Below are positions 1-14,376 of a stretch of 64,000 nucleotides of DNA, one piece after another. The first letter of the stretch is position 1. Every line of letters begins with the position of its first letter. Source of the DNA: Hyphomicrobiaceae bacterium. GTDB taxonomy: Bacteria > Pseudomonadota > Alphaproteobacteria > Rhizobiales > Hyphomicrobiaceae. Below the pieces are notes generated by a model. That model saw only the letters and a program-made list of their open reading frames with translations. It searched no databases and was not told the origin of the DNA. Where the stretch lies: assembly GCA_020442165.1 (NCBI GenBank), contig JAGRKV010000051.1, positions 434,001 through 498,000 of the forward strand, read 5' to 3'. The position numbers were made by a program, and so were the translations under genes.

Positions 1-1077
1 GTGGATGGCAGCCATGTTGGAGCCGCCGAGGAGGTCCTTCACCTTGTCGTAGCCGCCGTTGGCGCCAACCTTGAAGTAGCTAGGATCGTTCATCAGCAGC
101 GTAATGGCGCCGAAGCCGATGATGAAGGTGAGGATATAGAAGTAGCCGATGAAGCCGGTGGCAAAGAATACCGACTTGCGTGCTTCCTTGGCGTTGGCGA
201 CCGTGAAGAACCGCATCAGGATGTGCGGCAGGCCCGCAGTGCCGAACATCAGTGCCAGACCCAGCGAGATCGCCGAGACGGGATCGCTGATGAGTGCGCC
301 AGGTCCCATGATGGCGACGGCCTTGGGATGAACCTCAGTCGCCTTCCTGAAGAGCGCTTCAGGCGAGAAGCCGAAATTGGCGAGCACCATGATGGCCATG
401 AAGGTCGCACCGCCCAAGAGCAGGCAGGCCTTGATGATCTGCACCCACGTTGTCGCGACCATGCCACCGAAGGCGACATAGACGATCATGAGGCAACCGA
501 CGACGATCACGGCGTAGAGGTAGTCGAGGCCGAACAGCAGTTCGATCAGTTTGCCGGCGCCGACCATCTGCGCGATCAGGTAGAAGGCGACGACGACGAG
601 CGTGCCGATCGCCGACATTGTGCGCACTGGCACGGGCGACAGGCGGAAAGAAACCACGTCGGCGAAGGTGTACTTGCCGAGGTTGCGCAGTCGCTCGGCG
701 ATCAGGAACAGGATGATGGGCCAGCCTACCAGCCAGCCGACCGAGTAGATGACGCCGTCATAACCCGACGAGAAAACCAGTCCGGATATGCCGAGGAATG
801 AGGCCGCCGACATATAGTCGCCGGCAAGCGCCAGGCCGTTTTGGAAGCCGGTGATTCCGCCACCTGCGGTATAGAAGTCCGAGGCGGACTTTGTGCGCGA
901 GGCGGCCCATTTGGTGATGCCGAGCGTGAAGAGGACGAAGATGCCGAACATCACGATCGCTTCGAGATTGAGCGCCTGTTTGCCGCCACCTTCGATGGCG
1001 CCAGCAGCGAACGTGGCTGTGGTGGTGGCGATCAGCGCCGCTGAGGCTGCCAGTGATCTAATGCCAAATCTTGTCAT
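1..1077 (-). CDS. actP: Cation/acetate symporter ActP, C-terminus outside window
   Basis: Sodium:solute symporter family protein that imports acetate and similar short monocarboxylates with a cation across the inner membrane. The window holds the first 359 codons of a family usually about 550 residues long, so the C-terminal part is missing at the left edge. The product starts [12 protein letters not shown], has a cleavable-looking leader, then several membrane helices; [19 protein letters not shown] and the [12 protein letters not shown] segment are typical of ActP. A ribosome site GAGGAG lies inside the end of the upstream DUF485 gene, 2 bp away, so the two are translated together. Pairing with DUF485 is the classical yjcH-actP arrangement and supports the acetate assignment over other symporters. 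Confidence 0.93.
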
Positions 1078-6887: not shown

Positions 6888-7358
6888 TCAGCGGTCCTTG
6901 CCCGTACCGAAAACGCGATGCAGGGCTTCGGCGACACGAACGCTATCGACTTCGTCCTTGTGGATGACGTCGGCAGCACCAGCCTCCAGCAAAACGGACT
7001 TGCGTTTGCGCGTTGCCTGGCCGGAAACAACGACGACGGGGCCGTCGTAGCCTGCGCGCCGCAGGAATGGCAGCGTCTGGGCGGCATTGTCGCTGGGTTT
7101 CAGGACATCGTCGAGGAACACGATCTCAGGCGAACGCGCTATCACTTCGTCCAGGGCTCGTCCCAATGTCGCTGCCCGCCGGATCTCGACGTCGTAGCCC
7201 AGCATCAAGTGCAAGGTCGCCTTGAGCCGGTCAGCGTCGAAGGTTTCATCCTCGACGATGAGGATGTCCTTGAGGACAGGCAATCCCGCACGCGACTTTG
7301 TCACGCCGCTACGCTTGGCAAGATAATCGCCTCCGGATTTGTTGGCTGGGCCTGCCAT
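6888..7358 (-). CDS. Single-domain response regulator (receiver only)
   Basis: A 156-residue receiver protein. DILIVEDET supplies the acidic pair near residues 36-37, IVFLDDVLKP carries the likely phospho-acceptor Asp84, and VVVVSGQ plus a following Lys/Arg-rich segment complete the fold. About 27 N-terminal residues precede the domain. There is no DNA-binding or enzymatic output domain, so it acts through protein contact or as a phosphorelay intermediate. It lies 167 bp downstream of the histidine kinase gene on the same strand, at the end of the signalling series that starts at 11723, and is the natural partner of that kinase. Confidence 0.88.
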   Translation of the reverse strand: MAGPANKSGGDYLAKRSGVTKSRAGLPVLKDILIVEDETFDADRLKATLHLMLGYDVEIRRAATLGRALDEVIARSPEIVFLDDVLKPSDNAAQTLPFLRRAGYDGPVVVVSGQATRKRKSVLLEAGAADVIHKDEVDSVRVAEALHRVFGTGKDR

Positions 7359-7525: not shown

Positions 7526-8668
7526 CTAACTGAAGATCCGCTTTGGCCAGCTCAACTTGAAGGTCGTGCCGCGTGCCTTCGCCGGATCGGATTGGACTGC
7601 CATGGTGCCGCCGACAGTCTCTATGGTCCGGTTAACGAAGGCGAGGCCCATGCCAGTGCTGCCATCCTTCGGCGCGAGGGTACGGAACGGAAGCAGGATC
7701 GAAGCATGGTGCGCGGGGTCAATCCCGGGTCCGTCGTCTGCTATAGTTACAACTAGGTGCCTGGGCTGATCGGTAGCTGTGATAACGATGTGCCCGGTCT
7801 TGCGATCGTGGTGGACGATGGCATTTTGAACAAGGTTCCGCAAAACGAGATCGAAGGCAGCCTTTACGGTTGTCAGGTTTGGCCAATCGCCTTCGATGTC
7901 GATCGTGAAGCCACCAGGGACCGCGAGCGAGGCGACCACCGTTTCGACGATGGCACGGGTTTCAACAGATTCTGCGATTTCGGATTTGCGGCCGACACTG
8001 GCGTAATCCAGGAGCGAGGTCATCATCTCGTTCATCCGGCGCGTGCGCTTGCCGATTTCCTCCAGGCGCATGCTGGCGGTTGCCATGTCACCCGTTTCCA
8101 GGCTGGCGGCCAGATCCTCGCTGGCGTAGCGCAGGGCGCGGAGCGGCGATTTTAAATCGTGTGAGACGATAGCTGCGAAGTCTTCAAGATCGCGGTTGGC
8201 GCGGGCGAGTTCCGCATTCGCGCGCGACAGCTCGCGGGATTTTTCGGCCGCAATGGTCTCCGCAATCAAGCGTGCGCGCATCTGCTTGGACAAGTCGGCT
8301 TCGAGGTCCGAACGCGACGTGGAGCGGGCGATCAGCATCAGGTAGTGGCGACCTTCTGCATGCCACAGCACGGTGAGATTGAGCCGTGGTGCGCCTTCGA
8401 AGCTGGTGACGATGCGGATGGCTGGAAGGTCGATGACGCGACCGGGCGATTCCTTGAGTGCATGAAGATCGGTTTCGAGTCCGATCAGGGGCAGACAGTA
8501 ATCGAGCAACGGCTCACCAATATCGAATGAATCGACGAGATGGCCGTAGCGCGCCGTGATGCGCAACTCCTCATCGAACCAGATCAAACCATAGACGCCA
8601 CGCTCGGCAAGCATGCGGCCAGCGGCAACCAGGGGGCTTGGCGAGAATTGCGAGGCTTCATCCGGCAT
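7526..8668 (-). CDS. Soluble PAS-like sensor histidine kinase
   Basis: A 380-residue kinase. Residues 18-115 look like a PAS sensor (GVYGLIWFDEELRITARYG), residues 120-163 form a coiled linker, the HisKA phospho-site is His170 in AIVSHDLKSPLRAL, and the HATPase_c domain follows with LVLRNLVQNAIVHHD (N box), IADDGPGIDP (G1) and STGMGLAFV (G2). No transmembrane helix is visible, so it is cytosolic. The gene starts 15 bp after the Ras-like GTPase gene, in the same series as the OmpA-type protein, and is followed by a receiver-only protein. This suggests its signal comes from the GTPase/membrane module; that is inference. Confidence 0.9.
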   Translation of the reverse strand: MPDEASQFSPSPLVAAGRMLAERGVYGLIWFDEELRITARYGHLVDSFDIGEPLLDYCLPLIGLETDLHALKESPGRVIDLPAIRIVTSFEGAPRLNLTVLWHAEGRHYLMLIARSTSRSDLEADLSKQMRARLIAETIAAEKSRELSRANAELARANRDLEDFAAIVSHDLKSPLRALRYASEDLAASLETGDMATASMRLEEIGKRTRRMNEMMTSLLDYASVGRKSEIAESVETRAIVETVVASLAVPGGFTIDIEGDWPNLTTVKAAFDLVLRNLVQNAIVHHDRKTGHIVITATDQPRHLVVTIADDGPGIDPAHHASILLPFRTLAPKDGSTGMGLAFVNRTIETVGGTMAVQSDPAKARGTTFKLSWPKRIFS

Positions 8669-8683: not shown

Positions 8684-9187
8684 TCACAGTCCGCGACGCA
8701 GCATGGTTGAGGCCGCTTCGTGAAATGCTTGTTTTACATTATCGCCAGTCAAAGCGCTGGTATGAAATACGCCGGATCTGCCGGAGGCGAGTTCTGCGGG
8801 AATGCTCGCGTCGTCACCGTCGAACAGATCCATCTTGTTGACGATGAGCGCCTCGTAGCGTCCCGGGAACTGGGAACGGAAGCCTTTGGAAAGCGAAAGC
8901 ATGGTGTCGAGTGTCTGGCGGCGTGTGACATCACCGATGATGAAGGCGGCGGATGCTTCCTTCATGTAGACGTGCTGGAACATGGCTTCGCCGAAATTGC
9001 CGTCCGTGTCCCAAATGATGAGCGACATGGCCTGATTGGTGGGTGTGGCGGGAATGTCGTAGCGGTAGATGTCGACGCCAAGCGTCGGCTTGTAGTCGGT
9101 CTCAAACCGGTCGAAAACCAGGCGCTTGGCGAGCGATGACTTGCCGACCCCGATCTCGCCCAGGAGCATGAGCTTGCGCGCGATCAT
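8684..9187 (-). CDS. Ras-superfamily small GTPase
   Basis: A 167-residue small GTPase. The motifs are in order: P-loop GEIGVGKSS (G1), YKPTLGVDIY with a switch-I Thr (G2), IIWDTDGNFGEAMF (G3), VNKMD (G4) and TSAL (G5). The usual switch-II glutamine of DTAGQ is replaced, since the sequence reads DTDGN, so intrinsic hydrolysis may be low and depend on a partner. Length and motif layout fit Rab/Ras-like proteins rather than Era/Obg types. The start overlaps the end of the OmpA-type gene by 4 bp (ATGA), indicating translational coupling. That neighbour has a segment resembling Roadblock/longin domains, which are known GTPase partners. Confidence 0.9.
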   Translation of the reverse strand: MIARKLMLLGEIGVGKSSLAKRLVFDRFETDYKPTLGVDIYRYDIPATPTNQAMSLIIWDTDGNFGEAMFQHVYMKEASAAFIIGDVTRRQTLDTMLSLSKGFRSQFPGRYEALIVNKMDLFDGDDASIPAELASGRSGVFHTSALTGDNVKQAFHEAASTMLRRGL

Positions 9188-11400
9188 GGGCTGCCTTCGC
9201 CCTTGAAGCCGATCTCGAACTCGACGCGACGATTGGCGCTGGTGGGACCGGTTGCAGGCGAGATGTCGATCATCGACAGCCGCCCCACGGCGATCAAGTT
9301 CGACGCCGGGATGCCGCGCTCTACAAGTTCGTCTCGCACTCGTTCGGCTCGGCGCTGCGACAGCGTGGAATTGCGGGTCGTGGTGCCGCGCTCGTCGGTG
9401 TAGCCAACGACGCGCAGAAATACGCCGGCCTTGCCGAGCAGTTTCGCCAGTTCGTCGAGCTGCGCGTTGGCCACGACGGTGTCGCGGAACTCGGCATTCT
9501 CGCCAAAGAATATCGCGTTGGTCTTCACGAAGCTCGACAGCTGCTCGATTGGCGTGGGGATGTGCGTGGGAGCCGGCGCGGGCTTGGGAATCGACCGGAG
9601 TGTGATCTCCGATTGCAGCAGTGCAAGCGTAATAAGCTGGGCGCGCCGCGCCTGATCGGCCAAGCTCTCGGCAGATGTCACATAAGCAGGCTGATCGGCG
9701 GGCGGCGGCAAAGCTGGAACTGTGGACGAGGAAGGTACTGCCGCGGCCAGATCGTTCTCCCGCTCGATTGCCGTGATGGCCGCATGCAGCGCATCGGCCT
9801 GGCCGTTAAGGCGCGCGGCAAGTTTTTCAGCGGCTGCACCTGCGGGAAGGTCTTCGCCGATCTCCTTGCCGGCATCACCAAGGCTCAGCGCAGCGGCGGC
9901 GAGCGCGGGCGCCAGCTTCTTGACGGTTGTGGTGATTTCAGCGCGACCGCCCGAGGCTGCAAGTGCCTTCAGTTTTTCCAGATATGCAGTGGCGGCGGAA
10001 AGGCCCTGGCGTGCGTTGTCGAGCGCACCCAGTGTTGAACGCCGCCAGCTTTCGCGATTGAACGTGCCCAATTCGCGACGCAGGGCGGCAATTTCCGGGG
10101 CAGCATCGCGGGCCCCCTGCGGCACGACCGATATGCGATTGTTGATTGCCGTTGCGGGCAGGGCCTCGGCGAGGCGGCCGAGAACAGCCTGAAGGGCCGC
10201 CGTGTTGGGCGCCAGACCGGTAATCGTCATGGCGCGGCCGCGCGGTGCGACATGCAGTGTCGTCGGATAGCCGCGAATCTCCGCGCTGTTCTCGATGACT
10301 TCCTTGGCGATCGCCTGGACACGGTTTGTTTCATAGTTAATCCATGTCGACCAGGCGAACCAAGCGATCGCTGGCAGCAGGATCACCGCTGCGAGTAATT
10401 TTGCCGGACTTATCCCGAGGGCCGGCGCATCAAGCTCCTCGTACTGTCTGGATATGCGCTCAGTGAGCCTGGGACCGAGTGACGAGAGGCTGGAGCGGGC
10501 AAGTTCGGGGTTCTCGCGTTCGCCGTGCAATCCGGAAACCGTCTTCAGGAATTCATCATCGATGACCTGCTCGATCGATGCTCCCGCGGTGCCGGCACAC
10601 TTGGCAGCGAGGAGATATCCCGGGGAGCCGCGCAGATAGACCTGCTTCTCGCCAAGGTCGATCTCGCGCAGTGCATTCTCGTTGGTTTGCAGCGCCTCGG
10701 TTGCAAACGAGTTGATTGCAGTCAGCACGCCACCCAGGACATGATCCTGGTTCCTGGTGCCGGGACTGTCGGGCCATCGCGCAACAAGCTCGCCGGTGCC
10801 TCGCCTTATCAGAAGCAGGTCTTCGACCTCGACGCGCTGGCTTTCCGCGAGCGCCAGTTCCGCCATCGAGCGCCCCGAAGTGAGGCTCTTGATGCGCAGC
10901 ATCAAGCGGTTGCTTTCCAAGCGCCGGTTGACCTGCTTGACGAGATCGCGCATGGCGCTCGCCACGTAGGCTTTCACCATCTGCCCGGTCATTGGATAGA
11001 GGGCTTCGACCAGCGCATCCTGGCTATTGACGATCTCGGTCTTGACCGTCTTGACGACAACGGGTGCGAGCGAGGTTTCCAGTGCTTCATGGCGCTCAGT
11101 TTCGGCCCGAACGATGGCACCATCCAGAACGTCGGCGACAGAGCGTGAAAAGCTGTCGGTTGTGCCGGCCCGCTCGAACACAGCATCGATGCGCCGTGCA
11201 AGCTCTGCTCTTGCACCTTCCTCATAGGCCTGGCGGTCCTGGATCGTCGCTTTCGTTTCCTGAAGCTGATTGCCAAGTGTGTTCAGCTGGCGCGCGAGTT
11301 CGGCCAGGCGCTCTGCCTCGCTGTCGAACAGCAGCTCCTTCAGCTTTGTCACGCTATGCGACATCGCACCTTCGGACATTCGTGGCGTCTCCCCGCTCAC
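9184..11400 (-). CDS. Membrane-anchored OmpA-family protein with cytosolic GTPase-partner-like region
   Basis: A 738-residue protein without a signal peptide. Residues 15-150 are helical and coiled-coil-like. Residues 190-275 (VEDLLLIRRGTGELVARWP, then a helix, then EKQVYLRGSPGYLLAAKCAG) resemble a Roadblock/longin-type domain. A single membrane helix lies at 332-350. Residues 360-427 look like a BON-type domain (MTITGLAPN). A helical stretch and Pro-rich linker follow, and residues 625-735 are an OmpA peptidoglycan-binding domain (VVGYTDERGTTTRNSTLSQRRAERV). The topology is therefore cytosol, one span, then periplasm. It sits between a coiled-coil gene (17 bp gap) and the small GTPase gene (4 bp overlap). 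The Roadblock/longin reading is by eye and needs structure prediction. Confidence 0.88.
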   Translation of the reverse strand: MSGETPRMSEGAMSHSVTKLKELLFDSEAERLAELARQLNTLGNQLQETKATIQDRQAYEEGARAELARRIDAVFERAGTTDSFSRSVADVLDGAIVRAETERHEALETSLAPVVVKTVKTEIVNSQDALVEALYPMTGQMVKAYVASAMRDLVKQVNRRLESNRLMLRIKSLTSGRSMAELALAESQRVEVEDLLLIRRGTGELVARWPDSPGTRNQDHVLGGVLTAINSFATEALQTNENALREIDLGEKQVYLRGSPGYLLAAKCAGTAGASIEQVIDDEFLKTVSGLHGERENPELARSSLSSLGPRLTERISRQYEELDAPALGISPAKLLAAVILLPAIAWFAWSTWINYETNRVQAIAKEVIENSAEIRGYPTTLHVAPRGRAMTITGLAPNTAALQAVLGRLAEALPATAINNRISVVPQGARDAAPEIAALRRELGTFNRESWRRSTLGALDNARQGLSAATAYLEKLKALAASGGRAEITTTVKKLAPALAAAALSLGDAGKEIGEDLPAGAAAEKLAARLNGQADALHAAITAIERENDLAAAVPSSSTVPALPPPADQPAYVTSAESLADQARRAQLITLALLQSEITLRSIPKPAPAPTHIPTPIEQLSSFVKTNAIFFGENAEFRDTVVANAQLDELAKLLGKAGVFLRVVGYTDERGTTTRNSTLSQRRAERVRDELVERGIPASNLIAVGRLSMIDISPATGPTSANRRVEFEIGFKGEGSP

Positions 11401-11417: not shown

Positions 11418-11723
11418 TTATTCGCGAGGGATCTTGCGGATGCGCTCGCCGAGATCCAGCACGCTCTTTGCGAGTTCGTCGAATGCGGCGCGGCGATCCG
11501 CTCCGACTTCGCCTGCCAGGGCTTCGAGCCGTGCATGCAGTGCCGCGAGGCGGCTGCCCACGGAGTGCTCGAGTTCGTTGAGGCGGCCTTCAAGGGCGGC
11601 AAGCCGGCGCTCTGTCTGGCGCACGACGTCGCCCACCAGCAGGTCGCGGATCTGTTCCATTTTCTCATCATTGCGATCGCCCTGCTGCGGCGTGCGGAGC
11701 TGATCGAGGGAGGTGGCGTTCAT
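11418..11723 (-). CDS. Small coiled-coil protein, first gene of the signalling series
   Basis: A 101-residue soluble protein, mostly heptad-like helix from residue 20 to 95 (LLVGDVVRQTERRLAALEGR, then repeated Leu/Ala/Glu positions). I recognise no family. Its gene precedes the OmpA-type gene by 17 bp on the same strand, so it is probably made with it; the OmpA-type protein also has N-terminal coiled-coil stretches, and direct binding would be a simple hypothesis. The ATG at 11723 is used. Confidence 0.68.
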   Translation of the reverse strand: MNATSLDQLRTPQQGDRNDEKMEQIRDLLVGDVVRQTERRLAALEGRLNELEHSVGSRLAALHARLEALAGEVGADRRAAFDELAKSVLDLGERIRKIPRE

Positions 11724-12285
11724 TTGCCGAATGCCTTCTAATAAACTCTGACGGATGCGTGACGCGCGCGGAACCGCAGCGTCAGCATGACCACGTCGGA
11801 TCTATGGAACCCTTGCGCTTGCAAGTCATATCCGCGTGAAATTCAATTCAAGCCCTGATCTTCTTTTCGGTACGACTTCTTCGGAATTAAGGCGCTAGGT
11901 GCTGTCGAATGGCCTGCTGAATTTACTCGGTTCGCGCGCCGCCACGGCATGAGGCGGGCAGGCATGTCGCTTGCTCTTGCTCCTCTGCGGTTCGCGTGCA
12001 GCTTCTTATGTTGGTCATTCAACCCGATAAATGTGTTCCGTCCAAGGGTTATGCGACAGCATATCTTACCCCCTTTCATCGTCCCACACCATTGGCGGAA
12101 ATAGTAAAAAATCGCCATAGATCGTCAAACAGGGTTTTAAATGAAAGCGTCTTATGGACCGTGTTCGGGGCCGCGTTTAACTGCATTGGACGAGTTGCTG
12201 GCTACGCCCCGACGATCGGGTGAGCGTTTGTCGGCAGCACTGCAATGTTGAAGTGGCTGCAGGTCTTGGGGGAAAAACGACCAGA
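11724..12285. other. Divergent intergenic region of the signalling locus
   Basis: About 560 bp between the leftward coiled-coil gene and the rightward CHASE2 gene. It presumably carries both promoters. The stretch 12095-12170 is AT-rich and includes an inverted repeat TGGCG (12093-12097) and CGCCA (12113-12117), too short to name. Short open frames here show no family and no ribosome site. If the CHASE2 protein starts at the GTG at 12220, the gap is 66 bp shorter. Confidence 0.4.
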
Positions 12286-13512
12286 ATGACAGCTGGTGTG
12301 CGAAGGCCGGGCTTATTTCGGGCAGGGGGAGAAACGGCAGGCCGGCGCGGTTTGGCGCTGGCGCTATTGTTTGCTGCAATGGCGGCTGCCTTTCTGCCGC
12401 GACTGCCTGCGGACTGGTCGACCCGCATTCTGGCCCCTGGCTGGATGCCGCACCAGATTGTGCAGCTCCTGGAATATTCAAACGATGTTCAGGTGGCGGT
12501 TCTGGCTGACCGGCTGGCAGGGCCGCATCCGCGTGTCGCGATCGTTCTGATAACGGATGAGACACTTGCCGAGCTTCCGTATATTTCGCCGATCGACCGA
12601 GGACTTCTCGCCCGGGTCGTGAAAGCCGTCGATGGGCTTGGTGCCCGTGCCATAGGTCTCGACATCCTCTTCGATCAGGCAACCGAGCCCGACAAGGATG
12701 CTGCCTTGATCGAGCGGTTCAGGCTTTCGCGCGCGGCACTGGTGCTCGGCGGCGCCGACGAACGCACGCCGCTGGCGCCAAGGCGGCGGTCCTGGCAGAC
12801 CTCGTTCATGCAACGAGCGGGGTTGCCATTTGGGTATCTCAACCTGCGTTATGACGTCAGGGAAGCGGCACTGACGCATGTCGTGCGCAGCCGGGCCAGC
12901 GCCGCACCGAACTCGGCATTCAAGAAAAGTTTTGCGGAGCTGCTGGCGGAGCGCGCGGGCATCCGTTCGGTCCCTGAGAGCAGGCGCATTGCCTGGTTGC
13001 GGCCACCGCTTTCCGGCGGCGAGACGTTCACGACCGTTGATGCCGATGCCGTACTTGCGGCCGATCGCGAACCGGATGGTATTCTCGCGCGGGCGCTAGA
13101 GGCGCAACTCGACGGGCGGATCGTTCTGATTGGTGGTGATATCGATGGCCGCGACCGGCATCCCACGCCGCTGTCGCTGGTCGATGGTCAAGATACACTG
13201 GGTATTGCAATCCATGCCCAGATTCTCGCCGGGCTCATGGATGGCCGCTCCCTCAGCGATCTGACGCCGGCGGGCGTTTCATTTCTTGCTGGCGTTGCAA
13301 CCCTTCTGGGTGCGCTGATCGGCTGGTTCGCGGCCCGGCGGCGCCTCGTTTTCACTCTCGCCATCGGTGTTGGTACGCTGATCGTCATGGGCGTGAGTGC
13401 CATCGTGTTGTGGCAATTCCGTTCCATAGTTCCGGTGGCGCTGCTGATTGCATCGCTCGTTGGCGCTGCGGTCGTTATGCGGCTTGCGCGCTCCTGGCTT
13501 GCGCAGGGTTGA
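12286..13512 (+). CDS. CHASE2-domain membrane protein without output domain
   Basis: About 408 residues. An N-terminal hydrophobic helix (LALALLFAAMAAAFLPRL) is followed by a periplasmic CHASE2 sensory domain, with the hallmark segments VAIVLITDETLAELP...PIDRGLLARVV and GARAIGLDILFDQ. Near the C-terminus are three membrane helices (from GVSFLAGVATLLGALIGW to VALLIASLVGAAVVM), and the chain ends there. CHASE2 proteins usually continue into a cyclase, kinase or GGDEF domain; none is present. The ATG at 12286 has a G-rich site upstream; a GTG at 12220 is also possible. It is followed by a FecR-like exported protein and lies opposite the GTPase/OmpA/kinase series. Confidence 0.87.
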   Translation: MTAGVRRPGLFRAGGETAGRRGLALALLFAAMAAAFLPRLPADWSTRILAPGWMPHQIVQLLEYSNDVQVAVLADRLAGPHPRVAIVLITDETLAELPYISPIDRGLLARVVKAVDGLGARAIGLDILFDQATEPDKDAALIERFRLSRAALVLGGADERTPLAPRRRSWQTSFMQRAGLPFGYLNLRYDVREAALTHVVRSRASAAPNSAFKKSFAELLAERAGIRSVPESRRIAWLRPPLSGGETFTTVDADAVLAADREPDGILARALEAQLDGRIVLIGGDIDGRDRHPTPLSLVDGQDTLGIAIHAQILAGLMDGRSLSDLTPAGVSFLAGVATLLGALIGWFAARRRLVFTLAIGVGTLIVMGVSAIVLWQFRSIVPVALLIASLVGAAVVMRLARSWLAQG

Positions 13513-13572
13513 AATGACTGGGATGCGCTGGTGAAGTGTCCACGGTACGTGATTTGGAAAGAGGGGTTCTTG

Positions 13573-14376
13573 ATGCGCAAGAAGGTTGGCGGACCGGTTC
13601 TGATTGCAGCAACGCTTGGAATGTTTGGGATACTTACCGGCGCAGGCTCTGCTGTCGCGGACGTCATCGTTATCGGGGCAAGCGGCGCATCCGTTAAACC
13701 GGGTCAGGTCCTGACGAGCGACGCCACTCTTAGTCTGCCGGGCGGGGCGCGCGTTCGTGTCATGCTCGCTTCTGGGCGAACGCAGGAGCTCAAGGGGCCG
13801 GGCCAGATCAAGATCGGCGACCTCGGTAAGGGCGAGGCTGTCAACGAAAGCCTGTGGAACGACGTCAAGCGTCTTGTCGCGACGCAGACAAGCGCACGGG
13901 AAAGCGAATTGGGTGCCGTCCGTTCGGTTGCGCCAACGAAAAGCAGCCGATCGTTCTCAGCGTCTCGGGGTGGTGAGGCTCTGGGTGAACTGGGTGCTGC
14001 CGGGACGGCATTTTCCTGGCGGCGTGTCTCGGTCGACCGCGAGGGTGATGTCTGCGTCGAGAAAAGCGCTCCCATCGAATTGGTGCGTAATTCGCCGGGG
14101 CGGCCGCTGGCTGTCACGATCGTCAATATCCAAGCCAAGAAGCGCGGCATGGCGGAGTTCTCTGCGGGATCTGCAACCACATCGTGGCCCGCATCTGTCG
14201 GCAGTGACGTTGGGCTTTACGCCGTCGTTCTGCCTGACGGTGGGCGGCACGAGGTGCGCCTGCGTCCGATCAAGCCGTTGCCTGCGGCCGACGATACGCT
14301 GCGCGTGCTGCATGGTCAGCGCTGCCTGGCGCAGGTGGAAGCCTGGCTCAGGGGGCAAATGACGGCGAGCCGCTGA
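13573..14376 (+). CDS. Exported FecR-like protein
   Basis: About 267 residues with a signal peptide ending near GSAVADV. Residues 30-80 (ASVKPGQVLTSDATLSLPGG, then ARVRVMLASGRTQELKGPG) resemble the FecR-type beta domain found in periplasmic signalling proteins. The rest, including a C-terminal segment with a pair of cysteines (DVCVEK and GQRCLAQ), is not recognised. The ATG at 13573 has GAGGGG 6 bp upstream. It follows the CHASE2 gene by 60 bp and converges on the ferredoxin oxidoreductase gene with a 7 bp gap. CHASE2 plus FecR-type pairs recur in alphaproteobacteria and cyanobacteria; a role in sensing envelope state is inferred. Confidence 0.72.
   Translation: MRKKVGGPVLIAATLGMFGILTGAGSAVADVIVIGASGASVKPGQVLTSDATLSLPGGARVRVMLASGRTQELKGPGQIKIGDLGKGEAVNESLWNDVKRLVATQTSARESELGAVRSVAPTKSSRSFSASRGGEALGELGAAGTAFSWRRVSVDREGDVCVEKSAPIELVRNSPGRPLAVTIVNIQAKKRGMAEFSAGSATTSWPASVGSDVGLYAVVLPDGGRHEVRLRPIKPLPAADDTLRVLHGQRCLAQVEAWLRGQMTASR

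Follow-up and report, generated by a model that had tools for sequence, protein, structure and literature searches.

Group 1 Rup, a group of small bacterial GTPases, was described in 2014 together with its gene neighbourhood (Wuichet & Sogaard-Andersen, PMC4316618). According to the accessible part of that paper, among bacterial GTPases these stand closest to Rab/Ran/Ras/Rho; they are Rab/Ras-like, lack the G3 Gln, and have as neighbours a coiled-coil protein, a protein in which a domain “of unknown function” is followed by a transmembrane (TM) segment and an OmpA domain, and a histidine kinase or a GGDEF/EAL protein. The stretch analysed here (the window) comprises 64,000 nucleotides of a Hyphomicrobiaceae bacterium (assembly GCA_020442165.1, contig JAGRKV010000051.1, positions 434,001 to 498,000) and carries a compact minus-strand operon encoding, in order, a protein of 101 amino acids (aa), a 738-aa protein, a GTPase, a histidine kinase and a response regulator. 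With a TM-OmpA protein and the gene for an output enzyme adjacent to the GTPase gene, this operon fits the Group 1 Rup neighbourhood, and the four-gene system is already in print. New here are the longin-type identity predicted for the domain of the TM-OmpA protein, class III cyclases as outputs, and the recurrence of this four-gene order on a plasmid of Nostoc. A literature search, with most subscription papers outside its reach, found no paper that had already called this domain a longin or a Roadblock, and no other one using the Rup terms.

Predicted fold of the domain in the TM-OmpA protein

Homologues of the 738-aa protein were gathered from related genomes and from a sample of 398 genomes of the phylum, 49 of which match at E <= 1e-8. 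An AlphaFold2 model of residues 13–345 (model 1; 44 sequences, the others 20–57% identical to the window protein) has a mean predicted local distance difference test score (pLDDT) of 88. It shows long N-terminal helices followed, at residues about 190–324, by a β-β-α-β-β-β-α-α arrangement, a confidently predicted Roadblock/longin-fold domain across which the pLDDT means of ten-residue blocks are 80–96. In model numbering (protein residue minus 12) the elements are strands 179–187 and 193–197, helix 201–225, strands 234–236, 240–246 and 250–257, and helices 262–280 and 286–312. A previous reading of the sequence only (the sequence-only reading) had proposed a Roadblock/longin order of strands and helices for residues 190–275, in a transmembrane OmpA-type protein whose gene overlaps that of a Ras-like GTPase. 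The model confirms this order and adds a second C-terminal helix. The sequence strings quoted for it are found at residues ~195–267 of an open reading frame (ORF) that is present as described, with a single TM helix, a significant OmpA match and a 4-base overlap (ATGA) with the GTPase gene.

Searched with Foldseek against the PDB, model 1 has only Roadblock/longin-fold chains as its 50 matches listed, including Mon1-Ccz1, Ragulator, TRAPP, MglB, adaptor sigma chains and GATOR1 (best E 1.1e-3, probability 0.99–1.00 among the matches listed). By VIA, the best match is the Asgard longin 8yqg_A (Z 13.2 over 125 residues, model 178..308, 2.7 Å), with TRAPP 2j3t_D (Z 12.0), a MON1A complex (Z 11.8) and MglB (Z 10.3) further down; the Roadblock 3kye_B reaches Z 11.2 over 100 residues (model 178..285), and other Roadblocks are not higher. 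A second model, predicted separately for the domain alone of a distant gamma-proteobacterial member (L053; 31 sequences, pLDDT 78, predicted template modelling score (pTM) 0.66), again has Roadblock/longin-fold chains as all 50 Foldseek matches listed (best E 2.4e-4). Its first 20 VIA rows are longin-fold chains (Z 13.6 to 11.2) and reach residues 159–168, while the best Roadblock has Z 11.2 over 102 residues and the Roadblock rows stop at 136–142. The Foldseek E-values are modest in both models; that all 50 listed rows are Roadblock/longin in each of the two is more than chance would give, and AlphaFold2, Foldseek and VIA agree on the fold both times. No PAS or profilin chain is among the 50 matches listed by Foldseek or VIA for either model, a relationship to these folds being still possible.

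Longins and Roadblocks have a common core but differ in which end of the chain carries one particular helix (PMC3521125 and PMC10933270, accessible parts). In both models the extra helix is predicted at the C-terminus, replacing the N-terminal helix of Roadblocks; alignments to longins run through this last helix, whereas those to Roadblocks end before it and start at chain residues ~16–27. On this ground the domain is predicted to be longin-type rather than MglB/Roadblock-type. The models support the sequence-only reading on the shared Roadblock/longin fold and refine it to the longin-type arrangement.

Several results weigh against this assignment. Model 1 has a pTM of 0.58, a value for which the long helices are probably responsible. 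Profile comparison, which the sequence-only reading had recommended, gives no link: hhalign of the domain against 16 Roadblock proteins yields a probability of 1% (E 0.054), the controls giving 0.1% for unrelated proteins and 99% for Roadblock against Roadblock. The order of this weak alignment agrees with the structure, which we did not count as evidence. A weak Pfam longin match (Fuz_longin_1, E 0.0033) occurs in just 1 of the 44 homologues, the window protein having none, and a weak Robl_LC7 match (PF03259, E 0.063) also in just one, too little for the domain to be classed as a Roadblock. An hmmsearch with profiles A1 and A2 against PDB chains returned nothing relevant.

A Rab-like GTPase with varied outputs

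The nearest solved relatives of the GTPase are Rabs: Rab-type chains head its PDB matches (best 60 of the 287 distinct sequences at E <= 1e-5 listed), and by this comparison the protein is Rab-like rather than MglA-like. Among 38 GTPase rows, with gaps left out of each position's total, the G3 Asp is present in 36/36 and Gln at the Gln61 position in 0/35 (the window protein has Asn), the Group 1 Rup pattern of a G3 Asp without the G3 Gln; switch-I Tyr32 is Tyr in 38/38.

The domain gene and the GTPase gene are tightly linked, in support of the tie to the adjacent GTPase that the sequence-only reading had proposed. We counted 75 loci with the N-terminal domain, after dropping L001, L031–L034 and L063–L092, each of which is a duplicate, a Roadblock locus or the window. 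A same-strand GTPase gene comes next downstream in all 57 loci with at least 100 bases of downstream sequence, the remaining 18 having fewer than 100 bases past the domain gene; five of these loci repeat a genome stretch already counted, which leaves 52/52 distinct genomes or records. The two genes lie −1 to 182 bases apart, in many cases with stop and start codons that overlap, the exception being L018 (925 bases, apparently a frame-shifted gene). Of 36 relatives searched for both proteins, 14 have both and 20 neither, and two are cut at contig ends: G019 retains the GTPase and the C-terminal part of its partner at a contig start, and G001 the domain at a contig end. In relatives, the domain gene and the GTPase gene come and go together. 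The domain occurs in 8/289 genomes of a sample of the alphaproteobacterial class, so the system is patchy. The window's genome encodes one such GTPase and no Robl_LC7 protein.

The longin-GTPase pair is constant while the enzymes encoded downstream of it vary by lineage (L094–L112), being a histidine kinase, a hybrid kinase, a class III cyclase or a GGDEF-EAL protein. Class III cyclases, which extend the published set of outputs, account for 4/10 output proteins scanned and are also annotated on a Mesorhizobium plasmid. The N-terminal region of the outputs is conserved among the kinases, and by eye the cyclases look similar; that of the window kinase is, again by eye, PAS-like. In the N-terminal region of the outputs, the most frequent Gln column holds Gln in 10/15 sequences, an apparent difference from the invariant Gln of the Group 1 Rup description. 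The idea of a Gln supplied in trans, raised in the accessible part of PMC4316618, was set aside, as neither the kinase set examined nor the longin-type domain has an invariant Gln.

Two further observations concern distribution. On a Nostoc plasmid (Cyanobacteriota; L113:3120-9138) the four genes come in the same order, and the periplasmic part contains BON as well as OmpA domains. Three alphaproteobacterial genomes (G521, G563 and G623) have the longin-domain gene twice; the copies lie about 3–4 kilobases apart on the same contig in G521 and G623, which suggests duplication or pairing of longin proteins, perhaps as heterodimers.

Possible roles: exchange factor, GAP or anchor

The sole hydrophobic segment of the 738-aa protein lies at residues ~325–354, and OmpA is its only significant Pfam domain. 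With one hydrophobic segment and a periplasmic OmpA domain, the N-terminal half should be cytosolic. Its helical region has a conserved LKELLFD.E start and a YP.TG..V motif. Since homologues start near M8/M13 in the alignments, and with a GGGGAG stretch ahead of codon 8, the true start is probably one of these two Met codons and not the listed GTG.

We propose that this protein is the inner-membrane, receptor-like component encoded by a Group 1 Rup GTPase operon. Its cytosolic half would probably dimerise via its long helices and hold the longin-type domain against the membrane, the single TM helix leading from there to a periplasmic part with a putative peptidoglycan-binding OmpA domain at its end. 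The longin dimer would dock the Rab-like GTPase at the membrane and, in response to the envelope, set the nucleotide state of the GTPase, in the likeliest case by promoting the release of GDP. Once loaded with GTP, the GTPase would in turn act on the output enzyme, in this operon the histidine kinase, at that enzyme's conserved N-terminal region. The chain would run from the state of the envelope, via the longin platform and the nucleotide state of the GTPase, to the output enzyme. That the longin platform regulates or docks the adjacent GTPase we hold to be rather probable; that it is specifically like a guanine nucleotide exchange factor (GEF) is an analogy to which we would give somewhat less than even odds. 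The complete proposal, in which a bacterial longin domain serves as exchange factor of a Rab-like GTPase and is connected across the inner membrane with peptidoglycan, we rate at about 0.35.

Exchange-factor action is our first choice by analogy, since Rabs have longin platforms, Mon1-Ccz1 and TRAPP among them, as their GEFs (PMC5216073, accessible part); action as a GTPase-activating protein (GAP) is the first rival. Two considerations speak against the proposal: similarity of fold by itself demonstrates no activity, and only 25/38 GTPases have the switch-I Lys of Rab7 type that Mon1-Ccz1 uses, so that the exact Mon1-Ccz1 exchange mechanism is not general here; a Rab7-like K38 exchange was ruled out as a general mechanism on this ground.

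A GAP, as MglB is for MglA, would switch off a GTPase that lacks Gln61 by completing or ordering its active site. Given the complete lack of Gln at the Gln61 position, hydrolysis should need help, and MglB, which has a Roadblock domain, acts as a GAP and, according to one report, as a GEF too (PMC11016934, accessible part). R200 of the longin-type domain is basic in 44/44 homologues, the sole basic position conserved in all, but it is Lys in 10 of them, so a strict arginine-finger GAP is not favoured and was not adopted; the domain also lacks an invariant Gln, and its longin-type arrangement counts against a GAP, which we consider unlikely. The “GAP or anchor” of the sequence-only reading is possible.

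A passive, Ragulator-like anchor, or an effector by which the GTP-bound GTPase would signal from the cytosol to the cell wall, draws on the Ragulator chains among the structural matches listed and on the OmpA end of the protein (PF00691), as OmpA-family domains can tether to peptidoglycan. This role alone would leave unexplained why varied output enzymes carry a similar kind of N-terminal region, and we regard it, too, as unlikely. That the domain leaves the GTPase unbound and is there for dimerisation or ligand sensing alone is improbable in view of the near-absolute pairing with the GTPase gene, even if the longin, Roadblock, PAS and profilin-like domains have related folds and certain longins act outside GTPase regulation (PMC3521125 and PMC10933270, accessible parts).

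Operon layout and comparison with described systems

Table 1. Features of the operon, with positions in the window
Feature	Position	Strand	Basis
Small protein, 101 aa, helical/coiled-coil-like, first operon gene	11418..11723	-	ORF
Longin-TM-OmpA protein, 738 aa	9184..11400 (likely start 11379 or 11364)	-	ORF, GTG start as listed
N-terminal helical region, residues ~13-163	10912..11364	-	AlphaFold2, alignments
Predicted longin-type domain, residues ~190-324	10429..10833	-	AlphaFold2, Foldseek, VIA; repeated on gamma-proteobacterial homologue
Transmembrane helix, residues ~331-352	10345..10410	-	Hydropathy scan
OmpA-family domain (peptidoglycan-binding type), residues 645-721	9238..9468	-	PF00691 E 2.4e-11
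Rab/Ras-like small GTPase, 167 aa, WDTDGN (Asn at Gln61 position)	8684..9187	-	PF00071 E 1.2e-22
Histidine kinase, 380 aa, proposed output	7526..8668	-	HisKA + HATPase_c
Response regulator, single-domain	6888..7358	-	PF00072 E 5.7e-10; same position in L031

The 101-aa ORF matches coiled-coil Pfam families below threshold only and has an upstream homologue in most loci; the Apolipoprotein, Baculo_PEP and ADPrib_exo_Tox matches of the coiled-coil neighbours are below the cut-off and were put down to composition. By eye, it has a helical motif similar to one at the N-terminus of the longin-OmpA protein (11300-11364), EQIRDLLVGD...E..LAALE versus KLKELLFDSEAERLAEL, and the two may pair as helices. 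The response regulator is a possible partner of the operon's kinase. Divergent from the operon, at 12220-14376 (plus strand), lies a CHASE2-domain gene, followed by one for a secreted product that by eye is FecR-like and has no Pfam match; these two genes adjoin the operon in the same-genus loci too, namely L031 (a Hyphomicrobiaceae metagenome-assembled genome) and L032.

If the domain is longin-type, Rup systems would join MglA-MglB and the conservons in having a Roadblock/longin-fold partner, and Group 1 Rup GTPases would gain a concrete candidate regulator for GEF/GAP activity. An inner-membrane protein that reaches the cell wall appears, from the models, to carry on its inner side a domain of the kind that switches human Rabs. 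This suggests a route from the state of the cell wall to kinases, cyclases and c-di-GMP enzymes via one GTPase, and bears on whether Rab-longin coupling predates eukaryotes and Asgard archaea. If the domain is indeed an exchange factor, the Rab-longin pairing of eukaryotic membrane traffic would also operate in bacterial envelope signalling, by descent or by convergence, and would there span Pseudomonadota and Cyanobacteriota. The accessible part of PMC4917890 records “Longin/Roadblock” in bacteria as one joint category.

The longin RabGEFs Mon1-Ccz1, TRAPP and Fuzzy-Inturned share with this system the longin arrangement and a Rab-like partner, and are among the highest Foldseek and VIA rows listed; they are eukaryotic heterodimers in large complexes, whereas here a single gene encodes the domain together with TM and OmpA parts, and no significant sequence relationship to these longins was found. 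MglA-MglB and the actinobacterial conservons (CvnA-D), as described in the accessible sources, likewise combine a small GTPase with a Roadblock/longin-fold regulator, in conservons with a histidine-kinase-like neighbour, but their regulators are Roadblocks and their GTPases of the MglA family, in contrast to the predicted membrane- and peptidoglycan-linked longin-type domain and Rab-like GTPase here. The Asgard longin and Roadblock-longin proteins provide the best VIA match to the window domain and are archaeal; according to the accessible part of PMC10933270, small GTPase genes of MK-D1 do not as a rule share operons with genes for Roadblock, longin or TRAPPC3 proteins, whereas here the GTPase and its predicted longin-type partner are encoded in one operon.
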